From the NCBI GenBank assembly GCA_017561055.1, contig JAFZDT010000063.1:1-50213 (forward strand): a DNA stretch of 50,213 nucleotides, read 5' to 3'. This DNA is from Erysipelotrichaceae bacterium (lineage in GTDB: Bacteria > Bacillota_I > Bacilli_A > Erysipelotrichales > Erysipelotrichaceae). This document shows positions 17,646 to 29,244 of this stretch, piece after piece. Both the position numbers and the translations under genes were made by a program. The first letter of the stretch is position 1; each line of letters opens with the position of its first letter. Below the pieces are notes generated by a model, which had not been told where the DNA came from, made no database searches, and saw only the letters and a list, made by a program, of their open reading frames with translations.

Positions 17646-17678
17646 ATAAAAAAAGATATGAACTTACATTCATATCTT
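17646..17678 (-). terminator. Terminator of the eight-gene operon
   Basis: On the minus strand AAGATATGAA-TGTAAG-TTCATATCTT runs into TTTTTATT. It overlaps the stop codon of the TM2 gene. Confidence 0.9.
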
Positions 17679-18021
17679 AATAAAGTTTATTTACTAGTGA
17701 ATAAAATAATCGGTAATTGTACTCTTTTGTTAGTTTAACAATCATTATCCAATCAAATAAAGTCCAAAGACCAAATAATCCCATCGTAAAGAATTTAATT
17801 AGTCCATTTTTTGTTTCACCTAGTAAGAAACGATCCAATCCCCACATTCCAAAAAGGAAAGAAACCACAAACATAATTATAGGATTACGATATGAAATCT
17901 TTTCATATAAGAAACCATCATTCTCTAGGGATAATAATGTATCTCTTACTTTCACTAAATCTGTCTCAGTAAAATATTTACCAAAATGAATAATATATTC
18001 ATCTACTCTTGCATATTCCAT
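17677..18021 (-). CDS. TM2-domain membrane protein
   Basis: The 114-residue protein has a soluble N-terminal half and a TM2 domain (about 42-97). In TM2, two hydrophobic helices flank the FGMWGLDRFLLGETKNGLIKF segment, which carries the conserved G-x-x-D/H-R-F motif. Its function is unknown; TM2 proteins often sit with membrane stress genes. The ATG at 18021 starts 2 bases after the TPM-gene stop and uses a GGAGGAGG site inside that gene's Gly-rich 3' end. It is the last gene of the operon. Confidence 0.85.
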   Translation of the reverse strand: MEYARVDEYIIHFGKYFTETDLVKVRDTLLSLENDGFLYEKISYRNPIIMFVVSFLFGMWGLDRFLLGETKNGLIKFFTMGLFGLWTLFDWIMIVKLTKEYNYRLFYSLVNKLY

Positions 18022-18022
18022 A

Positions 18023-18865
18023 TTATCTTCTTCCTCCTCCAAAACCACGACTAGAGCCACCACGACTTCTTGAACCTATAGAACTACGAGAAATACTCGA
18101 AGAACGTGATGGTGTAAATGTAGAACGTGATGGTCGTGAACTCACTGATGGGCGATAACTTGGTGTGGAACGAATCACAGTTCTAGGCGCATAATACGGT
18201 CTAGTACGATACGTTGGTGTACGATAACGATGCGTTCTTCTTGTTTGTGGATATCTTGGTTTTGAAAGCATAATCGATATCAAAATAACCACAATCAAAA
18301 CCAATACGATTAAAAATAGAATCATCGCAAAATCAACACCAGCGTCAGTAGTATTCGATTGTACATTTGGTACACCATAAATATCTACCAATTCTTCATA
18401 TAACACATCAAATGTATTAACAATCGCAGTCTCAAACTGTTCATTATCAAAATACGGTTCAAAATACGTTTCTAATATTTCATCAATACGCGCAGCACTA
18501 ATCTGACTTTCTAAGCCACGTCCAACCATGACATAATACTTTTCTTCTTGAATAACAGCTAGTAATAAAATTCCATTATCCTTTTCACTAGAACCAATAC
18601 CCCACTCATTAAACATCGTATAGGCATAATTCAAAATATCACTATGAATATAATCCACAGCTACAACTTCAATATACGCACCACTATGGCGATCCATATA
18701 GTAATTCTTCTCAGAAATATCATATTCTACATCTTCTGATAACACATTAGCTGGATCGTAGTAATAAGTATCTACACTTTCAGGTACATCAATGGCATAG
18801 ATTGGTAATACAAAAGATACCAACAATACCAATATCATACCCAATGTCATAATATACTTTCTCAT
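18023..18865 (-). CDS. TPM-domain (YgcG-like) secreted membrane protein
   Basis: The 280-residue protein has a signal peptide (about 1-24), then an extracellular TPM domain (about 30-160) with YYYDPANVLSEDV, GIGSSEKDNGILLLAV and YVMVGRGLE. One membrane helix (about 175-197) and a low-complexity Arg/Ser/Thr tail ending in SSRGFGGGRR follow. TPM proteins act at the cell surface, often with LemA proteins. Its ATG overlaps the LemA-like gene by 4 bases, which reinforces that pairing. Confidence 0.9.
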   Translation of the reverse strand: MRKYIMTLGMILVLLVSFVLPIYAIDVPESVDTYYYDPANVLSEDVEYDISEKNYYMDRHSGAYIEVVAVDYIHSDILNYAYTMFNEWGIGSSEKDNGILLLAVIQEEKYYVMVGRGLESQISAARIDEILETYFEPYFDNEQFETAIVNTFDVLYEELVDIYGVPNVQSNTTDAGVDFAMILFLIVLVLIVVILISIMLSKPRYPQTRRTHRYRTPTYRTRPYYAPRTVIRSTPSYRPSVSSRPSRSTFTPSRSSSISRSSIGSRSRGGSSRGFGGGRR

Positions 18866-19395
18866 CTAAAATACTCCACATCTTTTGCGAATATCTTTAA
18901 AACATTCCCAATCAAACCAGATGTTTCTTTTTCATATTCCGCAACCAATGTATTATATGGATCCAAAGAAATCGTATTTTGCGCATTTTCAAAGATAGAT
19001 ACTTGTTCCTTTAAACTTTTAGCATTTGTCGATGTTAAAGATACATTTTGTAATTGTTGAACCAACGATTGAATTTCAACATTCAAACTTTGATTACAAA
19101 CATATTTATCATGAATACTATCTACTTGATCAAACACTTGAACAGCCGCATTCGCTCTTGTAGTGTTAATATCATACTTATTCGCTAATGTCACAATATT
19201 TCTAGCACACTCAATACGAGTATCTAAATCATGTTGAATGGACAAACCATCTTTTTTCTCACCCACTAAAAACTCTTGATAAATGTCATCTGCCATGCGA
19301 TTCAATTTAGAAACACCCGCAAACAAAGAACTTGATACTATCAAGACAAGCATCACAAGAATCATTAATGTTTTATTTTCTAAATGATTCATCAT
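18862..19395 (-). CDS. LemA-like membrane protein
   Basis: The protein has about 177 residues: an N-terminal transmembrane helix (about 9-27) and a helical extracytoplasmic domain ending in the LemA-like PYNTLVAEYEKE ... KIFAKDVEYF segment. It is divergent from classical LemA, so the call leans on topology, the PYN motif and the overlapping TPM gene, its usual partner. The start is among GTG/ATG/ATG at 19398-19392; the first ATG has AAGG 7 bases upstream. Confidence 0.75.
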   Translation of the reverse strand: MMNHLENKTLMILVMLVLIVSSSLFAGVSKLNRMADDIYQEFLVGEKKDGLSIQHDLDTRIECARNIVTLANKYDINTTRANAAVQVFDQVDSIHDKYVCNQSLNVEIQSLVQQLQNVSLTSTNAKSLKEQVSIFENAQNTISLDPYNTLVAEYEKETSGLIGNVLKIFAKDVEYFR

Positions 19396-19409
19396 CACAC
19401 ATCCTTTTC

Positions 19410-20540
19410 TTAGGCATTAATTTCTAATAATTTAGCCTTAATTTCTCCCTCAATACGAGCCAATTCATGTTCAGCTTCTTGACGTTTTGTACGTCCTTCT
19501 TCTTGAATCTTTAATACTTCATCTAAAGTTTCAATTAATGCTTGGTTTGTATGTTTCAATGTTTCAATTTCAACAATACCCTTTTCAGCTTCTTTTGCTG
19601 TATCAATAGTAGCTTGTTTTAAAGTTTGCGCATTTTTCTTTAATAAGCTATTTGTTAATTCACTAACTGCTTGTTGCGCTTCAATTGCTTGTTTAGAATG
19701 GTTGATACCCAACGCTAAAACCATTTGTGATTTCCATAAAGGAATCGTATTCACCAATGTAGATTGAATCTTTTCAGTCATCAATGTATCGTTATTTTGT
19801 ACTAAACGAATTTGAGGTCCCATTTGTAATGCAATATTACGAGTTAATTCTAAATCATACAATTTCTTTTCAAAACGATCACATAATTGAGCTAAATCAT
19901 TGGCAGCTTGAGAATCTTCTGCTAAACCACTTACTTCTGCTTTCTTAACTAAAGCAGGTAAATCAACAGTACGAACTTCTTGCAATTTCTTTTTACCAGC
20001 TAAAATGTACATTGTTAATTCTTTAAAGTTTAACAAGTTCTTTTCATACATTTCATCTAAAATCGCAATATCTTTCATCAATTGAATTTGATGAGACTCT
20101 AAAGCAGACGCAATCTTATTTACATTCAACTCCGCTTTATCAAAGCGAGCTTTCATAGATTGTACTTTATTACTACCTTTTTTGAATAAGCCAGCTAACC
20201 CTTTTTCTTCAGGTTCTGCATCAAAACCTTTTAATTCCACAACAAGGTCACCTAACATGTCACCAACTTCACCCAAGTCTTTTGTACGAACATTATTTAA
20301 TGTACTTTCAGAAAAACTAGAGATTTTCTTTTGAGCTGCTGCACCATATTGTAAAATTACGTTAGATTGTGTTAAATCAATTTGTTTCGCAAAATCTTCT
20401 ACTTGTTTCTTTTCTTCTTCTGTTAATGTGCTATCATTCACATACACAGGAGTTACTTCAGGTTTTGCTTCTTCAACTACAACCTCTTCCACTTTTTCTT
20501 CTTCTGCATTTAATGTTAAAGTAATTTTATCTTCTGACAT
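19410..20540 (-). CDS. TelA/YceH-family toxic-anion resistance protein
   Basis: The 376-residue cytoplasmic, highly helical protein belongs to the TelA family (tellurite and other toxic-anion tolerance, also linked to cell-envelope antimicrobials). Features are the FAKQIDLTQSN segment, KMKARFDKA-like central helices, and the QMGPQIRLVQ / LWKSQMVLALG region typical of TelA. The N-terminus is acidic. The ATG at 20540 follows GGGAGG at the end of xpaC. XpaC and TelA are frequent neighbours; how they work biochemically is not established. Confidence 0.9.
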   Translation of the reverse strand: MSEDKITLTLNAEEEKVEEVVVEEAKPEVTPVYVNDSTLTEEEKKQVEDFAKQIDLTQSNVILQYGAAAQKKISSFSESTLNNVRTKDLGEVGDMLGDLVVELKGFDAEPEEKGLAGLFKKGSNKVQSMKARFDKAELNVNKIASALESHQIQLMKDIAILDEMYEKNLLNFKELTMYILAGKKKLQEVRTVDLPALVKKAEVSGLAEDSQAANDLAQLCDRFEKKLYDLELTRNIALQMGPQIRLVQNNDTLMTEKIQSTLVNTIPLWKSQMVLALGINHSKQAIEAQQAVSELTNSLLKKNAQTLKQATIDTAKEAEKGIVEIETLKHTNQALIETLDEVLKIQEEGRTKRQEAEHELARIEGEIKAKLLEINA

Positions 20541-20541
20541 G

Positions 20542-21195
20542 TTATTTTTCCTCCCCACTTGTCACAAAGCCTTGTGATGCTAATAAACTTTCCATCACTT
20601 TAATATCACTAGAAATATCCAACGCTTCATCATCATATAAACGATCCAATTGTTCTTTAAATGCTTTCTCAACTTGCGCAAGCATATTTTCAATTTTCTT
20701 CTTCGATGATTTCACATTTTCACTTTCAAAAGTTTCATTTTCTAATTCTGTATAATAATCCAACATCTTCGAAATTGTTGGTAGATAGTAGGAAATGAAT
20801 TTACGAATTTCTTGTACTTTCTTAGGATACTCTTGTACTCTATTTAAAATATTTTGCGATACTTTTACAATATCATCAATATCTTTTGAGACTTCTACAT
20901 TTTGAATCTTATTATTCGCTTGCACTAAACGATTCAAATAATGTTGACCCTCATTGATTACATCTTGTACTTCTAAATTTTCAAAAGGAATTTCCTCTTC
21001 ATATTGTATCACGATATCTTTAAATACCTTAAACTTTCTCATAGCTAAATACGCAAAGATATCAATTCCAGCAATTAATAAATAACTACTTAATTTATAC
21101 ATTGGGAATACAAATGCTAGAATTGCCCATAAAATACCACAAACCAAATATGGTTTACTAGAAGGAACATTCTTTGTACGAATATGTGTTTTCAT
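20542..21195 (-). CDS. XpaC-family membrane protein
   Basis: The 217-residue protein has two hydrophobic segments near the N-terminus (about 16-32 and 36-50), then a helical cytoplasmic domain with YYLPTISKMLDYYTELEN and a final IKVMESLLASQGF. This pattern identifies the XpaC (5-bromo-4-chloroindolyl phosphate hydrolysis) family. The named activity is historical; a TelA-linked membrane role is more plausible. It shares its C-terminal signature with the operon's first gene (23810-24715). Confidence 0.88.
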   Translation of the reverse strand: MKTHIRTKNVPSSKPYLVCGILWAILAFVFPMYKLSSYLLIAGIDIFAYLAMRKFKVFKDIVIQYEEEIPFENLEVQDVINEGQHYLNRLVQANNKIQNVEVSKDIDDIVKVSQNILNRVQEYPKKVQEIRKFISYYLPTISKMLDYYTELENETFESENVKSSKKKIENMLAQVEKAFKEQLDRLYDDEALDISSDIKVMESLLASQGFVTSGEEK

Positions 21196-21205
21196 TGTAT
21201 CACCC

Positions 21206-23269
21206 CTATTCTACAAATGATGAATCATCTAATACAAAGTCTTTTAAACAAAGCTCATCCAACTTCGCATCCACCTCTTTAACAACTCTACGAGATTGTT
21301 GTAAAATAGCTTCTTCTACTTTATTTCTAGCTAAACGACCATTACCACTAATCTTTGAATCATCTTTTTGTACTTTATCAAAATACGCTAATAATGGTTC
21401 ATCACATTCAGGTAAAATCGTATATTCCTTACTCTTCGCAATGGATTTCGCAATCAATAACAATTCCTCAGCTGTATAATCCTTGAAATGTATTACATTA
21501 GGGAAACGAGATTTCAAACCAGAGTTACTTGTTAAGAATACTTCCATTTCCTTTTTATATCCAGCTAATATTACGATAACATCATCACGATAATCTTCCA
21601 TACCTTTAACTAAGGTATCAATACACTCTAAGCCAAAGTTATCATCTTTACCACGATACAATGCATACGCTTCATCAATGAACAATACACCACCCAAGGC
21701 TGATTTGATAACTTGCATCGTTAATGGAGCTGTATGCCCAACATAACGACCTACCAAATCTGCACGAGTTACTTCCACTAATTGTCCACCACTCAATACA
21801 CCAATTGCACGTAAATACTTCGAAATAATACGAGCAATCGTTGTTTTACCTGTACCAGGATTTCCAGTAAAGATCATATGCTTCGCTACTTCAGATGTTT
21901 TCAAACCTCTTTGTTCACGAATCTTTTGTACTTTGAAATGATCTTCTAAAGACAATACATATTCTTTTACATCATCCAATCCAACAATTTCATCCAATTC
22001 TTTTTTGATACTTTCCATCTCTAAAGAATCTTGTTGAACACAACTAGAATATGGGACCACTTGTTCACCAAGTACCATTTCCCATTCCGCATTTCTACGC
22101 AATGTTACTTCTAACACACCATTAAATGCATGTTCCAATTGGTATTGACTCATCATAGCCAAACATTCTTCTTGCATATGTTTTAAACTGTAGAACCCTT
22201 GATTTGCTAAATAGTGTTCTAAGAAATATGTTTTCACACTCTCATCAACGGTTACTTTAATATTCAATTGATGACTTGCATCCACTAATTCTACAATTGC
22301 CTTATCTACTAATGCCACAACATCTTCATGCGCAAAAGCCTTAGTTTCAACAATGTCTCCAAAACTCTTAACCACTTCCGCCCCTAATAAATCAATGACT
22401 TTGCTTTTCTTTAGTCCTGTTAAGAAAACTAAATATTTATCATTTGCAGTTAATTCACTGATTGTTTGTTGCATAAGTGCATTATTGGTATCCATTAATT
22501 GATTATTATTCATCACATAACGTTTCTTTAATGGTAATACACCCTTTGTTAATAAATCAGAAATCATTACCAAATATGCAGGATAACAATACTCAACATT
22601 TTCAAATACAACCACTTCATCTTCACTACGCAAAGCTGTAAACAAATCTTGCAATAATAATTTCTCATCTTCTTGTGTTGTATATAATCCTAAATCCAAA
22701 GTAGAAACACCATTACGTTTTAACACCTGTTCTTCAAATAAATGATTTACTACTTCATGTAAGGCAAAATGCTTCCCAGTTCCTTTAGAACCCATAACTA
22801 ACATCGTATTCTTTGTAGGATTGCCATTATCCATTACATACGGTCTACGAAAACTTAATACCAATTTACGAACAAAGTCTTCTTGTCCAATTACATTTTT
22901 ATTCACTTCTGTAATTACTTTTTGTGCAACTTCATCCGTAAAGAAAACTAAACTTTTTGTTTGTAAACTAGATGTATCATCATAATCTACAGATACACCA
23001 AAATCTTTTTCAATTTCTTTTTTTAATTTATCCAAATCAATCTCTGTTGTAAGAGAATTCGTCATGCGTTCTAACTCTACTAAATTCGCTTGTAGTTGTT
23101 CATTAAGTTTTTGATCAACAACTTCCATCTCTTCTAATTGCTTTTCAGTATTTCTAGCTTGTTGTAACATTTCATTACTATCCACCATGAAAGTACGTTT
23201 AGGCGCATTCTTCCCAAACACTTTTTCTTGCAATTCCTTAATTTCATCTGCACGAGATTTTCTAGCCAT
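21206..23269 (-). CDS. Double-AAA ATPase: degenerate ClpB-like module plus CbbX/SpoVK module
   Basis: The 687-residue cytoplasmic protein has a coiled N-terminus (30-90). A first AAA module starts at VIGQEDFVRKLVLSFRRP (ClpA/B D2-like), with an altered Walker A GSKGTGKH (160-167) and Walker B VVVFENVE, probably weakened or inactive. The second, CbbX/SpoVK-like module is intact: Walker A GNPGTGKT (469-476), Walker B LFIDE (Asp532-Glu533) and the sensor/arginine region LKSRFPNVIHF. It may remodel a protein partner encoded in the operon. The start follows GGAGGTTTAGTT. Confidence 0.85.
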   Translation of the reverse strand: MARKSRADEIKELQEKVFGKNAPKRTFMVDSNEMLQQARNTEKQLEEMEVVDQKLNEQLQANLVELERMTNSLTTEIDLDKLKKEIEKDFGVSVDYDDTSSLQTKSLVFFTDEVAQKVITEVNKNVIGQEDFVRKLVLSFRRPYVMDNGNPTKNTMLVMGSKGTGKHFALHEVVNHLFEEQVLKRNGVSTLDLGLYTTQEDEKLLLQDLFTALRSEDEVVVFENVEYCYPAYLVMISDLLTKGVLPLKKRYVMNNNQLMDTNNALMQQTISELTANDKYLVFLTGLKKSKVIDLLGAEVVKSFGDIVETKAFAHEDVVALVDKAIVELVDASHQLNIKVTVDESVKTYFLEHYLANQGFYSLKHMQEECLAMMSQYQLEHAFNGVLEVTLRRNAEWEMVLGEQVVPYSSCVQQDSLEMESIKKELDEIVGLDDVKEYVLSLEDHFKVQKIREQRGLKTSEVAKHMIFTGNPGTGKTTIARIISKYLRAIGVLSGGQLVEVTRADLVGRYVGHTAPLTMQVIKSALGGVLFIDEAYALYRGKDDNFGLECIDTLVKGMEDYRDDVIVILAGYKKEMEVFLTSNSGLKSRFPNVIHFKDYTAEELLLIAKSIAKSKEYTILPECDEPLLAYFDKVQKDDSKISGNGRLARNKVEEAILQQSRRVVKEVDAKLDELCLKDFVLDDSSFVE

Positions 23270-23280
23270 AACTAAACCTC

Positions 23281-23820
23281 CTACTTAATTGCGTCCATAA
23301 CGGTATCGTATACCAACTTCATCATTTCATTTTTTGATTTACGTAAAGCCTTATCTACCAAACGTAACCCATCTAAATATCCTTGTGAATATAAAGAAGG
23401 ATGCTGTGTTTGACGAGTTTGAGAAATTTCTTGCTTTAACGTTTTTTCCACGATTTGTAAGTTATTACGATTCAATTCTGCTTTATCAATATAACGCTCC
23501 AAAGCCGCCATATGCCCTGTCTTATAATACCCACGATAACGTGAATCATAAGTTACATTATCCAAAGATTGAATAAAATAATCATAACGTGACATACAAC
23601 CTTCTACATTACTCAAAGATGGTTTCTTACTAGTAGCCACTGTATTTATTCTTACTTCACCATCTACCAAATCTTCCAATGAATCATATCCACGCTCATT
23701 CGCTGCCTTATGAATGGATTCAACCACTTTCTTACCAAAAGCATCCACCGTTTCTTCAATAGCTTCTCCATTTACATATTTCTTCAATAATTCATCTACA
23801 TGATTGTTCTTATTTACCAT
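23281..23820 (-). CDS. Unknown protein of the AAA/TelA operon
   Basis: The 179-residue protein is soluble and mainly helical, with no signal peptide. Notable segments are RYDYFIQSLDNVTYDSRYRG, GHMAALERYIDKAELNRNNL and a C-terminal YLDGLRLVDKALRKSKNEMM. I recognise no family. The ATG at 23820 lies inside the 3' end of the upstream gene with AAGGTGAG spaced 5-7 bases away. Its place directly before the AAA ATPase makes it a candidate adaptor or substrate. Confidence 0.8.
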   Translation of the reverse strand: MVNKNNHVDELLKKYVNGEAIEETVDAFGKKVVESIHKAANERGYDSLEDLVDGEVRINTVATSKKPSLSNVEGCMSRYDYFIQSLDNVTYDSRYRGYYKTGHMAALERYIDKAELNRNNLQIVEKTLKQEISQTRQTQHPSLYSQGYLDGLRLVDKALRKSKNEMMKLVYDTVMDAIK

Positions 23821-24715
23821 CAGCACTCACCTTTTTCGCAAATGGACTATCATCAATCAATCCATCCTTACGCAACAACATTTCTAATGTACTCATATTC
23901 GCATTCATCGCCATAAACTCTTCTTGGCAAACAGTTGTACAAATTGTTTTCAATGCTTCATTAATTAAAATAATTGTTTTAATCAATTTATCTTCAGCCG
24001 CTTTAAATTCTTCATGTGATTGTACACTCACACTCATCTTCTTATAGTCTTCCAAAATACCAACTAAAATCGGCAAATAATATTGCGAAACCTTCATCAA
24101 TTTATCCTGACTCTTTGGAAAGTTTTTCTCAATCAATTCAATTTGTTTTAAATATGCACAAATTTGATATAAACCATTTGAAATCTCTTCATGTTCAATT
24201 TCAATATTCTTTTGATTAATAATTTCAATAAAATCCGCAATCGTTGATTGCTTCACTTCTTCTTTTACTTCTTCTTTTACAACTTCTTTTTTAACAAACT
24301 CTTTTTTATCCAAATACGCAAACTTTACTAATAAGTCCAACACTTTGTGATACATATCTTTATACTTACGTTCAAATTCTTGAAAACCAGCAACACAATC
24401 TTCCCCATAGTATACTTGTAAATCTTTTAAAGACACATATTTTCCACTCTTAGGTCTAAGATTAATTTCTCCAGTCACCACTAAACGATCATTTTCTTCA
24501 AAATATTCTCTCAAGCTTTCTTGAATTTTAGCTCTTTCGCTTGTTGATAAATATGGCTGTTCCTCTTTTTTTACTTCTGGTTGTACTTGTTTGTGTGAAT
24601 CACCAAAAATTAAATATTTAAACAAAACATACAAAAAAAGCACAGGAAAAAAACTGCCAAGACTAAATATGGTTAAAAAGAATAAAATAATTAAGGTTTT
24701 ATCTTTTTTATTCAC
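23810..24715 (-). CDS. XpaC-like membrane protein (second copy, first gene of operon)
   Basis: The 301-residue protein has one N-terminal membrane segment (about 9-37), a charged linker, a middle region and a KKEVVKEEVKEEVKQ acidic/basic stretch (about 141-160). The C-terminal helical domain has YYLPILVGILEDYKKM and MSTLEMLLRKDGL, matching the end of XpaC at 20542-21195. It starts with GTG, 10 bases after AGGAG; the overlapping ATG is out of frame. An extended -10 TGTTATAAT lies about 30 bases upstream. The homology call is from motif pattern only. Confidence 0.75.
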   Translation of the reverse strand: MNKKDKTLIILFFLTIFSLGSFFPVLFLYVLFKYLIFGDSHKQVQPEVKKEEQPYLSTSERAKIQESLREYFEENDRLVVTGEINLRPKSGKYVSLKDLQVYYGEDCVAGFQEFERKYKDMYHKVLDLLVKFAYLDKKEFVKKEVVKEEVKEEVKQSTIADFIEIINQKNIEIEHEEISNGLYQICAYLKQIELIEKNFPKSQDKLMKVSQYYLPILVGILEDYKKMSVSVQSHEEFKAAEDKLIKTIILINEALKTICTTVCQEEFMAMNANMSTLEMLLRKDGLIDDSPFAKKVSADGK

Positions 24716-24753
24716 ATCTGATCAACTCCTATACTTTTTTATTATAACATAAA

Positions 24754-24788
24754 CTAAAAAAATACAGCGACTTTTTATAAGCCGCTGT
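24754..24788 (-). terminator. Terminator between DHHW gene and the XpaC/AAA/TelA operon
   Basis: On the minus strand ACAGCGGC, a short AT-rich loop and GTCGCTGT are followed by ATTTTTTTAG. It isolates the two operons. Confidence 0.85.
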
Positions 24789-25865
24789 CTATTTTCGTAA
24801 CGTTTGACTATTATTTATCACAGGAATGCTATATAAGAACAATACATCCTGATTTTCAATTGTCATATATTCAGTAATCATACTAGGATACATATATCTA
24901 GCATCCACTAAAGTAATCTTTTGATATGCTTCTACTAGTAATGGAGCCAAACTACTACCAAATGAATCTCTAAAAATAATCAATTCTTTATCCGTAGTCG
25001 CATTAGGATTTTCAATCACAGTAAAAGCTGTAGCACCTGATAAGAAAACATCATAACTATCCATGCCTGTTAAAGTTGCTGTATCATAAATACTTGTTAC
25101 ACTTGGCTTTTCAAGATTGGTTACAATCGCTTCTTTTAAGATATCATTTTCTAAATACACCAATGTATCTGGTTCAACTTTTTGTCCCCATTGACCAGCA
25201 TAAGCGCCATAGAACTGATCATAACTTTGTGATTGATACATACCCTCAATTTCAACATCATAATGCTGTGCAATACGATTTACTACTAAATCCAAATACT
25301 CTTGGCGATAATGTAAATCCGTACGATAATAACTTTCACTAGATAAACAATCACGCAAATCAATTGTATCTACATCTAGATGTTCATCAATATAAGCATA
25401 AATCTTATCATAATCCAAACGTAAATGATCATCATCTTCTAAATAATAATTCTTATCTGGAATGATTGCTAAATACATTTTATTATCTTCAGAAAACATC
25501 GATTGGATACTTTCAATTACTTCCACAAAATGTCGAATAGAGCCTTCATTTACTTTATAGTCCATCTTATAGATGACACCATCTTTCATAAATAAACCAT
25601 TGGTATCTTTTTGTTGTAATAAGACATTACGCATAAAGCTTTGTACACTCCCCATAAAATCTCTTCCAACAAATTGATCATTGGCATAATCTTCAAAATC
25701 ATCCATCCAATCACCTGATAAAATATTCTCAACACTTATTTCAGGAAATTGTGTTAACGGTCTACGTTCTGTACTAGACACTTCTACATCCTTCGCAAAC
25801 AAATTGATTACAAACATTCCACAAAGCATCACCATAAAGGCAATTGTTAATAATTTATTCTTCAT
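24789..25865 (-). CDS. DHHW-family (AlgX/AlgJ-like) exported protein
   Basis: The 358-residue protein has an N-terminal membrane or signal segment (about 6-24). The body is SGNH-like, with ERRPLTQFPE, the DKNYYLE region, a DLHY motif (YYRTDLHYRQE) and IIFRDSFGSSLAP. These are the DHHW/AlgX pattern that places Ser/His/Asp for acyl transfer outside the membrane. It lies 11 bases after the MBOAT gene, its usual partner; together they probably O-acetylate a surface polymer. The polymer is unknown. Confidence 0.88.
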   Translation of the reverse strand: MKNKLLTIAFMVMLCGMFVINLFAKDVEVSSTERRPLTQFPEISVENILSGDWMDDFEDYANDQFVGRDFMGSVQSFMRNVLLQQKDTNGLFMKDGVIYKMDYKVNEGSIRHFVEVIESIQSMFSEDNKMYLAIIPDKNYYLEDDDHLRLDYDKIYAYIDEHLDVDTIDLRDCLSSESYYRTDLHYRQEYLDLVVNRIAQHYDVEIEGMYQSQSYDQFYGAYAGQWGQKVEPDTLVYLENDILKEAIVTNLEKPSVTSIYDTATLTGMDSYDVFLSGATAFTVIENPNATTDKELIIFRDSFGSSLAPLLVEAYQKITLVDARYMYPSMITEYMTIENQDVLFLYSIPVINNSQTLRK

Positions 25866-25876
25866 ACAACTACCTC

Positions 25877-27262
25877 CTAAAATCTAAAGTATAAGAATGG
25901 ATTGAAAGACGCATGTACTAACGATGCAGTTATAAAGAAGAATAACCCCAATAACATCACGACTTCAATAACATCATATACTTTATGTATTTCTAAACGA
26001 TCCACCCATTGAGTAAGTGTTTGTTTTGGTAATGGTGTACAAGCAAATAACGCAATCACAAACAACACTAAATAACTTTGTACATAATAAAGCGCTTCCG
26101 TTGTATATAGTGGAATGGACAATGAGAACATACCTTGTAATTGTGCAAACAACATCGATAAATCTTCTTGTCTAAAAATAACAAAACTAATCACCACTAA
26201 ATACTGTGTTGTTACCCAACCCAATACTGGATGCTTTTGTAAATATTTGCCATAGACAAATTTCTCCAATAACAATAATCCACCAAAATAACATCCCCAA
26301 ATCATATAGTTCCAGTTCGCACCATGCCAAAAACCAGTTAAAAACCAAACTACTAAAATATTACGAATATGTTTCGCAACAGATACACGATTACCACCTA
26401 ATGGAATATATACATAATCTCTAAACCAACCAGATAATGTCATATGCCATCTACGCCAAAACTCCGTTACACTTTTGGCAATAAATGGATAATTAAAGTT
26501 TTCTGGGAATTTAAATCCAAAGATAGAACCCAAACCAATCGCCATGTCACTATACCCAGCAAAATCAAAGAAAATTTGCATTGCATAAGCAATCGCTTGT
26601 ACCCAATACGACAATACACTCACTGGTAAACCTGTTAAAACATCAACCAATTCACCAAGCATATTCGCCAATAATACTTTTTTACCTAAACCAATAATGA
26701 AACGTTTTACACCATAACCAAATAGATCATAACTATGTGTACGTGTTTCCAATTCAATCGCTACATCACTATAACGAACAATAGGACCAGCTACTAATTG
26801 CGGAAATAAGCATACATAGGTAGAATAATCCAACAAGGAATGTGCCACTTGCACATTACCCATATATACATCCGCCACATAACTCATCGTTTGGAAGGTA
26901 AAGAAACTAATTCCAATTGGCATAACCACACGCAAATATGGGACATCCACAAAATTACGAGCAATGTCCAAAAAGAAACCAGCATACTTGTAATACACCA
27001 AGAAACCAAATTCTACTAAGATAGCAAACAACAATAATGCCTTACGATACTTTGGAAATTTCTCCATAAAAAGTCCGGCATAATAACTCACTACACAGCT
27101 AACCAATAACAACCAAATAACCTTTGGCTCTCCATATGCATAGAATAATAAACTCGCAACGAATAATACTACATTCTTTCCCTTATTTTTTGGCACAATA
27201 AAATATACAACCAATAATATTGCGAAAAAATAATACAAAAAGGAAATACTAGAAAATAACAT
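25877..27262 (-). CDS. MBOAT-family O-acyltransferase (AlgI/DltB-like)
   Basis: The 461-residue polytopic membrane protein has the AlgI-type motifs FWRRWHMTLSGWFRDYVYIP and the catalytic-His region TGFWHGANWNYMIWG. About ten or eleven helices are visible. It moves acyl groups across the membrane to the DHHW partner encoded next. The start follows AAGGAGGATATCT. The preceding lipoprotein gene completes a common three-gene cassette. Confidence 0.92.
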   Translation of the reverse strand: MLFSSISFLYYFFAILLVVYFIVPKNKGKNVVLFVASLLFYAYGEPKVIWLLLVSCVVSYYAGLFMEKFPKYRKALLLFAILVEFGFLVYYKYAGFFLDIARNFVDVPYLRVVMPIGISFFTFQTMSYVADVYMGNVQVAHSLLDYSTYVCLFPQLVAGPIVRYSDVAIELETRTHSYDLFGYGVKRFIIGLGKKVLLANMLGELVDVLTGLPVSVLSYWVQAIAYAMQIFFDFAGYSDMAIGLGSIFGFKFPENFNYPFIAKSVTEFWRRWHMTLSGWFRDYVYIPLGGNRVSVAKHIRNILVVWFLTGFWHGANWNYMIWGCYFGGLLLLEKFVYGKYLQKHPVLGWVTTQYLVVISFVIFRQEDLSMLFAQLQGMFSLSIPLYTTEALYYVQSYLVLFVIALFACTPLPKQTLTQWVDRLEIHKVYDVIEVVMLLGLFFFITASLVHASFNPFLYFRF

Positions 27263-27851: not shown

Positions 27852-28472
27852 TTACTTTTTGACAGTTACTCCCAATAAATTGGCTAAACTCACTGCCTGT
27901 TGTTCACTAATAATACTTCCCCTTATACTATCCACATCCATACGAATATTGGATAAATCACAAGTAGAAATATCTACATTTACCAAAGACACTTTATACC
28001 AATCCGCATCCAATAAATTACAATCCTCTAACACCCAATCTTTTTGTGTAAGATTGTATAAACGAGAGTCTTGCAAATCACAAGAAAGCATCGATACCGT
28101 CTTTAGATTTGAATCAACCATATTAAGATAACATAACTGACAGTCTTTGAAAAGCACATCTTGCAATAAACTATCAGAAATATCCCAACCCAATAATTTA
28201 CAGTCTTTAAACTCACAACGAATCATCGAACCCGCACTCATTTGTAAATTACTTAAGTTACAATGTTCAAATACACAATCTAAAAACTCATCTTGTTCAA
28301 TTTGACAAAAACTAAAATCCACATGATCAAAACGACATCCATCCCATCTACGTTCATTCACCATACAAGGTTCCATAACCATAGATACAATTTCCTTATT
28401 CACTAAATTATCATCTAGCGAATCATTCTTTGACCACATATCCAATTGTTTAACTAACTTTGGTTTTTTCAT
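27852..28472 (-). CDS. Pentapeptide-repeat protein
   Basis: The 206-residue cytoplasmic protein is made of tandem A(D/N)LxX-like pentapeptides (for example CSNLQM, CKLLGWDIS, SNLKTV, CNLLDADW), forming a right-handed quadrilateral beta helix. The repeats have frequent Cys and Asp. The family includes Qnr-like topoisomerase-protecting proteins, but this does not show resistance here. The start overlaps the VanZ-like gene stop by 4 bases. Confidence 0.87.
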   Translation of the reverse strand: MKKPKLVKQLDMWSKNDSLDDNLVNKEIVSMVMEPCMVNERRWDGCRFDHVDFSFCQIEQDEFLDCVFEHCNLSNLQMSAGSMIRCEFKDCKLLGWDISDSLLQDVLFKDCQLCYLNMVDSNLKTVSMLSCDLQDSRLYNLTQKDWVLEDCNLLDADWYKVSLVNVDISTCDLSNIRMDVDSIRGSIISEQQAVSLANLLGVTVKK

Positions 28473-29164
28473 ACCTTTTCTCCCATTAACCATTTCATAA
28501 ATCTTTGTAAAAACGGTAATTTCAATACAATAAACATCAAACACGCACCTACTAAGTTTAAGAAAATATCATCCACATCAAAATAGCCACGCATCGTAAT
28601 TGCTTGAGCAACTTCAATCATCAGTATCATTACTAATACAATACTCACAAACTTAACAAACTTTGCATACTTTTTATTTAAGATAGGTAAAAAGAAACCC
28701 ATAGGCATCATAATTACTACATTACCACCCATATTCATAATAAATTGTTCAAGCGTAATCACTTCATTTTGATACCCATTCCAATATAGTTGAATCATAT
28801 ATAAAGGCTTAAAATTCGCAGTTTCTTTAATATATTCTCTAATATTATGAAAATTCATAGCTAACGAAGTATTTCTACCCAAAACAGGATCCAATAACGT
28901 TAACTGCACAATCGTAAATACATAAAGAATAAATAAAATTAAAAATGTCCCATAGAACCAAAATCTACGAACCTTACACCTAGAATCCTTCACCAATACA
29001 TAAGACCCTACATACAACAATATACTCATACAAGAAACATAAAACATTCTAGCCCATACACTCATATATTGTTCCGTTGAAATGTCCACTTGCACATAAT
29101 GAATACAAATTAATGCAAATAACGCATAGCATACACATGCATATAAAAACTTTTTCGTAGACAT
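28469..29164 (-). CDS. VanZ-family membrane protein
   Basis: The 231-residue protein has five or six predicted helices. The VanZ pattern NMGGNVVIMMPMGFFLPIL and the later VDDIFLNLVGACLMF are clear. VanZ confers low-level teicoplanin resistance in enterococci; chromosomal homologues are widespread with unknown role, so no resistance claim is made. Start codons TTG/GTG/ATG occur in a row at 29170-29162; I used the ATG. Confidence 0.85.
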   Translation of the reverse strand: MSTKKFLYACVCYALFALICIHYVQVDISTEQYMSVWARMFYVSCMSILLYVGSYVLVKDSRCKVRRFWFYGTFLILFILYVFTIVQLTLLDPVLGRNTSLAMNFHNIREYIKETANFKPLYMIQLYWNGYQNEVITLEQFIMNMGGNVVIMMPMGFFLPILNKKYAKFVKFVSIVLVMILMIEVAQAITMRGYFDVDDIFLNLVGACLMFIVLKLPFLQRFMKWLMGEKV

Positions 29165-29244
29165 CACCAACTTTCAGGCGTTTATAATATCATATATACC
29201 CCAATATCTCAAGATACAAGAAAGCATACAGAAAACTGCATGCT

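Follow-up and report, generated by a model that had tools for sequence, protein, structure and literature searches.

An XpaC-TelA-type operon in an Erysipelotrichaceae bacterium carries a pseudo-AAA/CbbX-type ATPase that tracks TelA across genomes

The window analyzed here is a 50,213-nucleotide stretch of contig JAFZDT010000063.1 (assembly GCA_017561055.1) from an Erysipelotrichaceae bacterium, and on its minus strand it holds eight closely spaced genes encoding, in order, an XpaC-family protein (XpaC1), a soluble protein (Unk), a two-domain AAA+ ATPase, a second XpaC (XpaC2), TelA, a LemA-like protein, a TPM protein, and a TM2-domain protein. We regard it as an evenly balanced proposition that this operon is an XpaC-TelA(-LemA-TPM) envelope-stress module equipped with a dedicated AAA+ chaperone that remodels a sub-membrane TelA-XpaC assembly; the interaction, the substrate, and the phenotype are what we infer. 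The ATPase occurs almost only where TelA does, and it therefore probably assembles or dismantles a TelA complex.

The association was measured in 295 genomes of one Bacilli order, in which a search for the ATPase returned 158 matches, of which coverage and score marked 7 as single-domain and the other 151 as two-domain proteins, and a Pfam search for TelA was positive in 168 genomes. Both genes occurred in 145 genomes, the ATPase alone in 6, TelA alone in 23, and neither in 121 (p ~2e-50); with the two largest genera removed, the same four counts were 66, 0, 19, and 121. At the genus level, TelA was present in 24 of 24 AAA-bearing genera and in 11 of the 55 others (p 4e-12), and among 392 genomes sampled from the phylum it was found in all 19 that have a two-domain AAA. 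Cas1, a patchy control scored in the same genomes, showed no positive association with a null or slightly negative result. Might chance alone have set a housekeeping ATPase beside a generic stress operon, with no functional link? The restriction of the full eight-gene set to one genus would suit such an account, yet co-occurrence of this strength beside a null control, and a gene triple and an adjacency conserved across many genera, make it very improbable indeed, and we treat chance juxtaposition as already disfavored. Among the 134 genomes for which positions were listed, the ATPase and TelA shared a contig in 60 and lay on different contigs in 74; draft assemblies may separate true neighbors. 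Because the two genes keep company even when unlinked, a functional tie is favored over inherited gene order.

The two-domain AAA is nearly restricted to this one order. Among 249 genomes of Clostridia, the window's type was found in one, Lachnospiraceae YSD2013, where it nests inside the Bacilli clade of the AAA tree and where the genome also carries XpaC-TelA; strict confinement to a single order was rejected on account of this one apparent transfer to Lachnospiraceae.

What kind of ATPase is this? The protein (21206 to 23269, minus strand) consists of a degenerate domain of the ClpE/ClpC/ClpB-D2 type (residues ~95 to 400) followed by an intact domain of the CbbX/SpoVK type (residues ~415 to 680). 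With a profile of eight orthologues, the C-terminal half matches solved CbbX (4e-78), and this domain also matches EccA (1e-74) and SpoVK models; with the same profile, the N-terminal half matches the D2 end of ClpE, ClpC, and ClpB (2.6e-20 to ClpE). The Walker A and B motifs of the C-terminal motor (G.PGTGKT and [IV]DEAY) are intact in 45 of 45 aligned orthologues, and the window's own GNPGTGKT, FIDEAY, and AGY (Sensor-1 GY) place that domain in the SpoVK/CbbX/EccA clade. Only two of the readable rows keep the Walker A Thr/Ser in the N-terminal domain of the same alignment, the others mostly having His there, and the acidic DE pair of Walker B is lost in every orthologue; the window reads GSKGTGKH and VVFENV. 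Because of these two losses we call the N-terminal domain a pseudo-AAA domain, and the protein, as judged from its motifs, joins a dead domain of the Clp-D2 type to a CbbX-type motor that is intact. A catalytically competent Clp/Hsp100 D2 was rejected, the ClpE homology being accompanied by degenerate Walker motifs. An earlier note on this DNA had described a double-AAA ATPase; the two domains stand, and the degeneracy of the first is a feature that the note did not mention.

The motor scores under the curated cut-offs of the SpoVK (TIGR02881; 306 bits against 422.95), CbbX (TIGR02880; 235 bits against 459.25), and EccA (TIGR03922) equivalogs, and hence the protein belongs to the clade and to none of these three families. 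Members of the clade are dedicated, narrow-client chaperones recruited through variable N-domains (PMC10659427). The text of that clade-defining study, its figure labels aside, mentions neither TelA, XpaC, nor a pseudo-Clp N-domain; the dead Clp-D2-type N-domain thus sets the window's protein apart from those described in that text, and we provisionally consider the fusion of pseudo-Clp-D2 and CbbX-type domains an architecture new for the clade. Two observations on related proteins can be added. One genome (G018) encodes an 830-residue protein with two tandem SpoVK/CbbX-type AAA domains (L044:6281-8773), its TelA lying elsewhere, and at two loci (L005 / G020:C21 and L008 / G005:C4) the AAA matches end by crossing an in-frame stop or two, probably through extension of the match.

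The gene neighborhood of the ATPase was compared in 43 two-domain-AAA loci, sampled at one to a few per genus. XpaC1 lay in the same gene run as the ATPase in 32 of the 43, Unk in 25, and TelA in 21, and the AAA module sits apart from TelA in many genomes. XpaC1-Unk-AAA is a conserved, stable triple, and with it the operon has a new partner module. The suggested association of the AAA and unknown genes with TelA and XpaC is thereby borne out, by the tracking of TelA across genomes and by the triple; these two results are the opposite of the lack of linkage in relatives that would have undone it. Does the operon as a whole travel together, as had been proposed? The complete set was found only in three members of the window's own genus (g1), and the eight genes as a conserved unit were rejected.

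From the side of TelA, 80 named loci from other Firmicutes were compared, comprising XpaC-TelA alone in 27, XpaC-TelA with TPM in 14, and with both LemA and TPM in 9. The window has XpaC, TelA, LemA, and TPM in one operon and in that order, and the same four genes in the same order occur in Oscillospiraceae and other Clostridia (L128, L133, L141, L160, L163, L167, and L174). Those clostridial operons lack the AAA, Unk, and TM2 genes, all three of which the window has. The earlier note had taken the joining of the TelA-XpaC and LemA-TPM pairs to be unusual; since XpaC-TelA operons with TPM, with or without LemA, are common among the TelA loci and the four-gene arrangement is seen in many Clostridia, it is not new. 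As further observations on these loci, a YbjQ-family (putative heavy-metal-binding) protein follows TPM in place of TM2 in an f2 genome (G033; L039:13529-14155), and in L131, L136, L143, L166, and other Lachnospiraceae loci the TelA-adjacent XpaC is 330 to 460 residues long, about twice the usual length, with an extra region.

These neighborhoods bear on the main rival to TelA-XpaC remodeling, namely, that the ATPase serves some other client, such as a cell-wall synthesis enzyme in the manner of SpoVK and MurG, with TelA and XpaC as a parallel stress arm that shares its niche and never touches it. SpoVK and EccA do act on envelope-biosynthesis clients (PMC10659427), the XpaC1-Unk-AAA triple often stands alone, and a separate client would sit easily with the 74 of 134 genomes in which AAA and TelA are on different contigs. 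The ATPase is, however, near-completely dependent on TelA (145 of 151 genomes), it repeatedly adjoins TelA directly, its triple itself includes an XpaC paralogue, and an independent second type of TelA-AAA operon exists. On this balance we judge the other-client account unlikely.

That second type appeared among the 80 TelA loci as an operon with two periplasmic binding-protein (SBP) genes, one of them with a vWA domain, in the order SBP/vWA-XpaC-SBP-TelA-AAA. Ten or eleven of these SBP/vWA loci have a CbbX-type AAA of ~520 to 590 residues at TelA or close by. In the AlphaFold model of this second AAA, strands and helices follow one another in the N-terminal 260 residues just as they do in the AAA domain that comes next, and the whole model aligns with the two-ring AAA enzymes Rix7, p97, and ClpC. 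The TelA proteins of the SBP/vWA operons form a clade apart from that of the window (100% support), and in the AAA tree the CbbX-type motors of the two types likewise separate. Given separate TelA clades and separate motor clades, a pseudo-AAA domain on a CbbX motor would have joined TelA at least twice. More broadly, and with somewhat worse than even prospects, we speculate that a dedicated unfoldase-like chaperone of a single design, a dead AAA ring stacked on a CbbX-type motor, entered TelA envelope-stress systems on two or more occasions, and that TelA/XpaC is a dynamic polymer or scaffold beneath the membrane whose assembly or stripping is powered by ATP. In the literature that we found, such ATP-driven assembly or stripping is not described for TelA. 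Apart from this argument, the loci L096 to L105 and L111, from uncultured rumen and gut Bacilli and Clostridia, read SBP/vWA-XpaC-SBP-like-TelA-AAA and suggest a TelA system of its own kind, one that comes with a paired module for extracellular binding.

Several observations pull the other way, either from a dedicated TelA remodeler or from its repeated recruitment. Shared ancestry is controlled only in part in the co-occurrence statistics, at the genus level. The 23 genomes that have TelA and lack the two-domain AAA imply that TelA can function without it, and two of the 6 genomes with the ATPase and no TelA match (G134 and G239) are at least 90% complete. In some genomes the ATPase has no adjoining XpaC1 or Unk. 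The N-domain of the second AAA is AAA-like only by a modest AlphaFold model (pTM 0.49), and its sequence similarity to the N-domain of the window's protein is not significant.

The family assignments of the remaining genes (all on the minus strand) agree with those first proposed. XpaC2 (20542 to 21195) is a short XpaC with an N-terminal membrane hairpin and matches PF10112 (1.4e-22), TelA (19410 to 20540) is soluble and matches PF05816 (1e-123), the TPM protein (18023 to 18865) matches PF04536 (2e-26), and the TM2 protein (17677 to 18021), in the operon only in the window's genus, matches PF05154 (1e-13); the AAA label is Pfam-supported as well. The adjacent, co-directional PF10112 and PF05816 genes make an XpaC-TelA pair, and this genome has one copy of each. 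XpaC1 (23810 to 24715), a long XpaC-family protein with an N-terminal membrane segment and an extra region of ~80 residues, is paired with the AAA gene in relatives; it has no direct Pfam match, and its label comes from homology to XpaC2, with iterated hidden Markov model (HMM) profiles merging into one family and an alignment that shares the I...YYLP...GL core. The divergent LemA-family protein (18862 to 19392; one N-terminal membrane segment) likewise has no direct Pfam match, and its homologue and positional counterpart in a clostridial XpaC-TelA-LemA-TPM operon, L141, passes the PF04011 curated cut-off (3.7e-6). Unk (23281 to 23820), lying between XpaC1 and the ATPase, is a soluble protein of ~180 residues, predicted to be all-helical; it found no convincing match in Pfam, NCBIfam, or the PDB, and its AlphaFold model (pLDDT 79) is a helical bundle that has no PDB match at E <= 0.001. 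TelA, too, has no significant match among solved structures. The TPM protein has a signal peptide, the TPM domain, a membrane segment, and a basic Arg/Ser/Gly tail. By hydropathy, XpaC1, XpaC2, LemA, TPM, and TM2 each have one membrane segment or a pair of them, and Unk, AAA, and TelA have none.

The layout, read from the open reading frame (ORF) listing and the sequence, confirms eight tightly packed leftward genes, all present from 24715 to 17677. XpaC1 and Unk overlap; the gaps are 11 bases for Unk-AAA, 10 for AAA-XpaC2, 1 for XpaC2-TelA (with the TelA ATG at 20540), 11 to 17 for TelA-LemA depending on the start chosen, and 1 for TPM-TM2 (with the TM2 ATG at 18021), and LemA and TPM overlap by 4. 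The short spacing holds throughout, as had been said, and the upper bound moves from 14 bases to ~17 with the choice of start. The operon ends in an intrinsic terminator (17679 to 17648, minus strand; GATATGAA...TTCATATC followed by a T-run; -11 kcal/mol, z = -4.9), and on its own strand the sole internal terminator-like site is within chance expectation. At its 5' end, close to the 24740 where a promoter had been placed, is a promoter-like extended -10 box, TGT-TATAAT (24749 to 24741, minus strand), read from the sequence by consensus only; no good -35 was found for it. A further intrinsic terminator (24788 to 24764, minus strand; z = -5.1) parts the operon from the unit upstream, a DHHW/SGNH-like and MBOAT acyltransferase pair (24789 to 27262, minus strand) that ends in this strong terminator; the DHHW gene still adjoins XpaC1 in the close relatives L031 and L032. 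Tandem pentapeptide-repeat and VanZ-like proteins (27852 to 29170, minus strand) also lie near these envelope genes. The GC content of the window is 33%, and the host genome is 85.8% complete.

How does the operon compare with systems already known? Adjacent PF10112 and PF05816 genes are found in the XpaC-TelA pairs of Lactococcus (llmg_1115-telA1), Listeria (lmo1966-lmo1967), and Bacillus subtilis (xpaC-yaaN), to which the window adds a longer second XpaC, the helical Unk, and the two-domain AAA+. Ter systems (TerD, TerC, and TelA) have TelA in common with the window, and a vWA protein in common with the clostridial cousin TelA operon. No TerD-domain protein was found in this genome or in 30 relatives, and the absence of a detectable TerD means that this is not a Ter system, which was rejected. 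TelA has been proposed to form a sub-membrane structure and, as a Ter component, to prevent entry (PMC7824862), which together with a patchy distribution inside the order could suggest phage or plasmid exclusion, with AAA-powered TelA-type structures barring phage or xenobiotics. We consider this improbable: TerD is missing from the 31 genomes searched, TelA presence is stable within genera, phage or mobile neighbors were not seen at the loci, and PADLOC gave no specific system match, only weak, generic similarity for the AAA and, for Unk, a marginal match to PbeC. A known anti-phage system was rejected on that PADLOC result.

The literature on XpaC and TelA implicates cationic peptides and cell-wall drugs more than it does tellurite. 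In the CesSR-linked envelope-stress set of Lactococcus, XpaC is induced 10.3-fold and telA 3.4-fold (PMC3139573); a telA mutant of Listeria shows sensitivity raised 4-fold to nisin and 2-fold to tellurite (PMC12791056); and alterations in XpaC are a repeated finding in resistance to bacteriocins and daptomycin (PMC7864038). By analogy with these pairs, the envelope-stress role suggested in the earlier note would fit.

We posit a mechanism in which XpaC2 and XpaC1, at the inner face of the membrane, would hold TelA in a sub-membrane assembly, with LemA as a membrane part and the TPM protein as a part on the outer face. The AAA protein would be a stacked ring that attaches to the TelA/XpaC assembly through its dead Clp-type N-domain, and XpaC1 and Unk may serve it as membrane anchor and adaptor. 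TelA/XpaC would then be switched on, reorganized, or recycled at the cost of ATP hydrolyzed by the CbbX-type domain, in the way that Rubisco is restored to activity by CbbX, MurG is turned on by SpoVK, and type VII secretion is served by EccA. The cell would thereby tolerate agents that act on the membrane or the wall.

Envelope-stress regulons of Gram-positive bacteria repeatedly include TelA and XpaC, which also affect bacteriocin tolerance. An ATPase that tracks TelA, whether linked to it or not, offers a handle on how they work, with its client and its ATP dependence open to in vitro assay. The CbbX/SpoVK chaperone clade, for its part, would gain a client system and an apparently unreported type of N-domain, the pseudo-Clp-D2.

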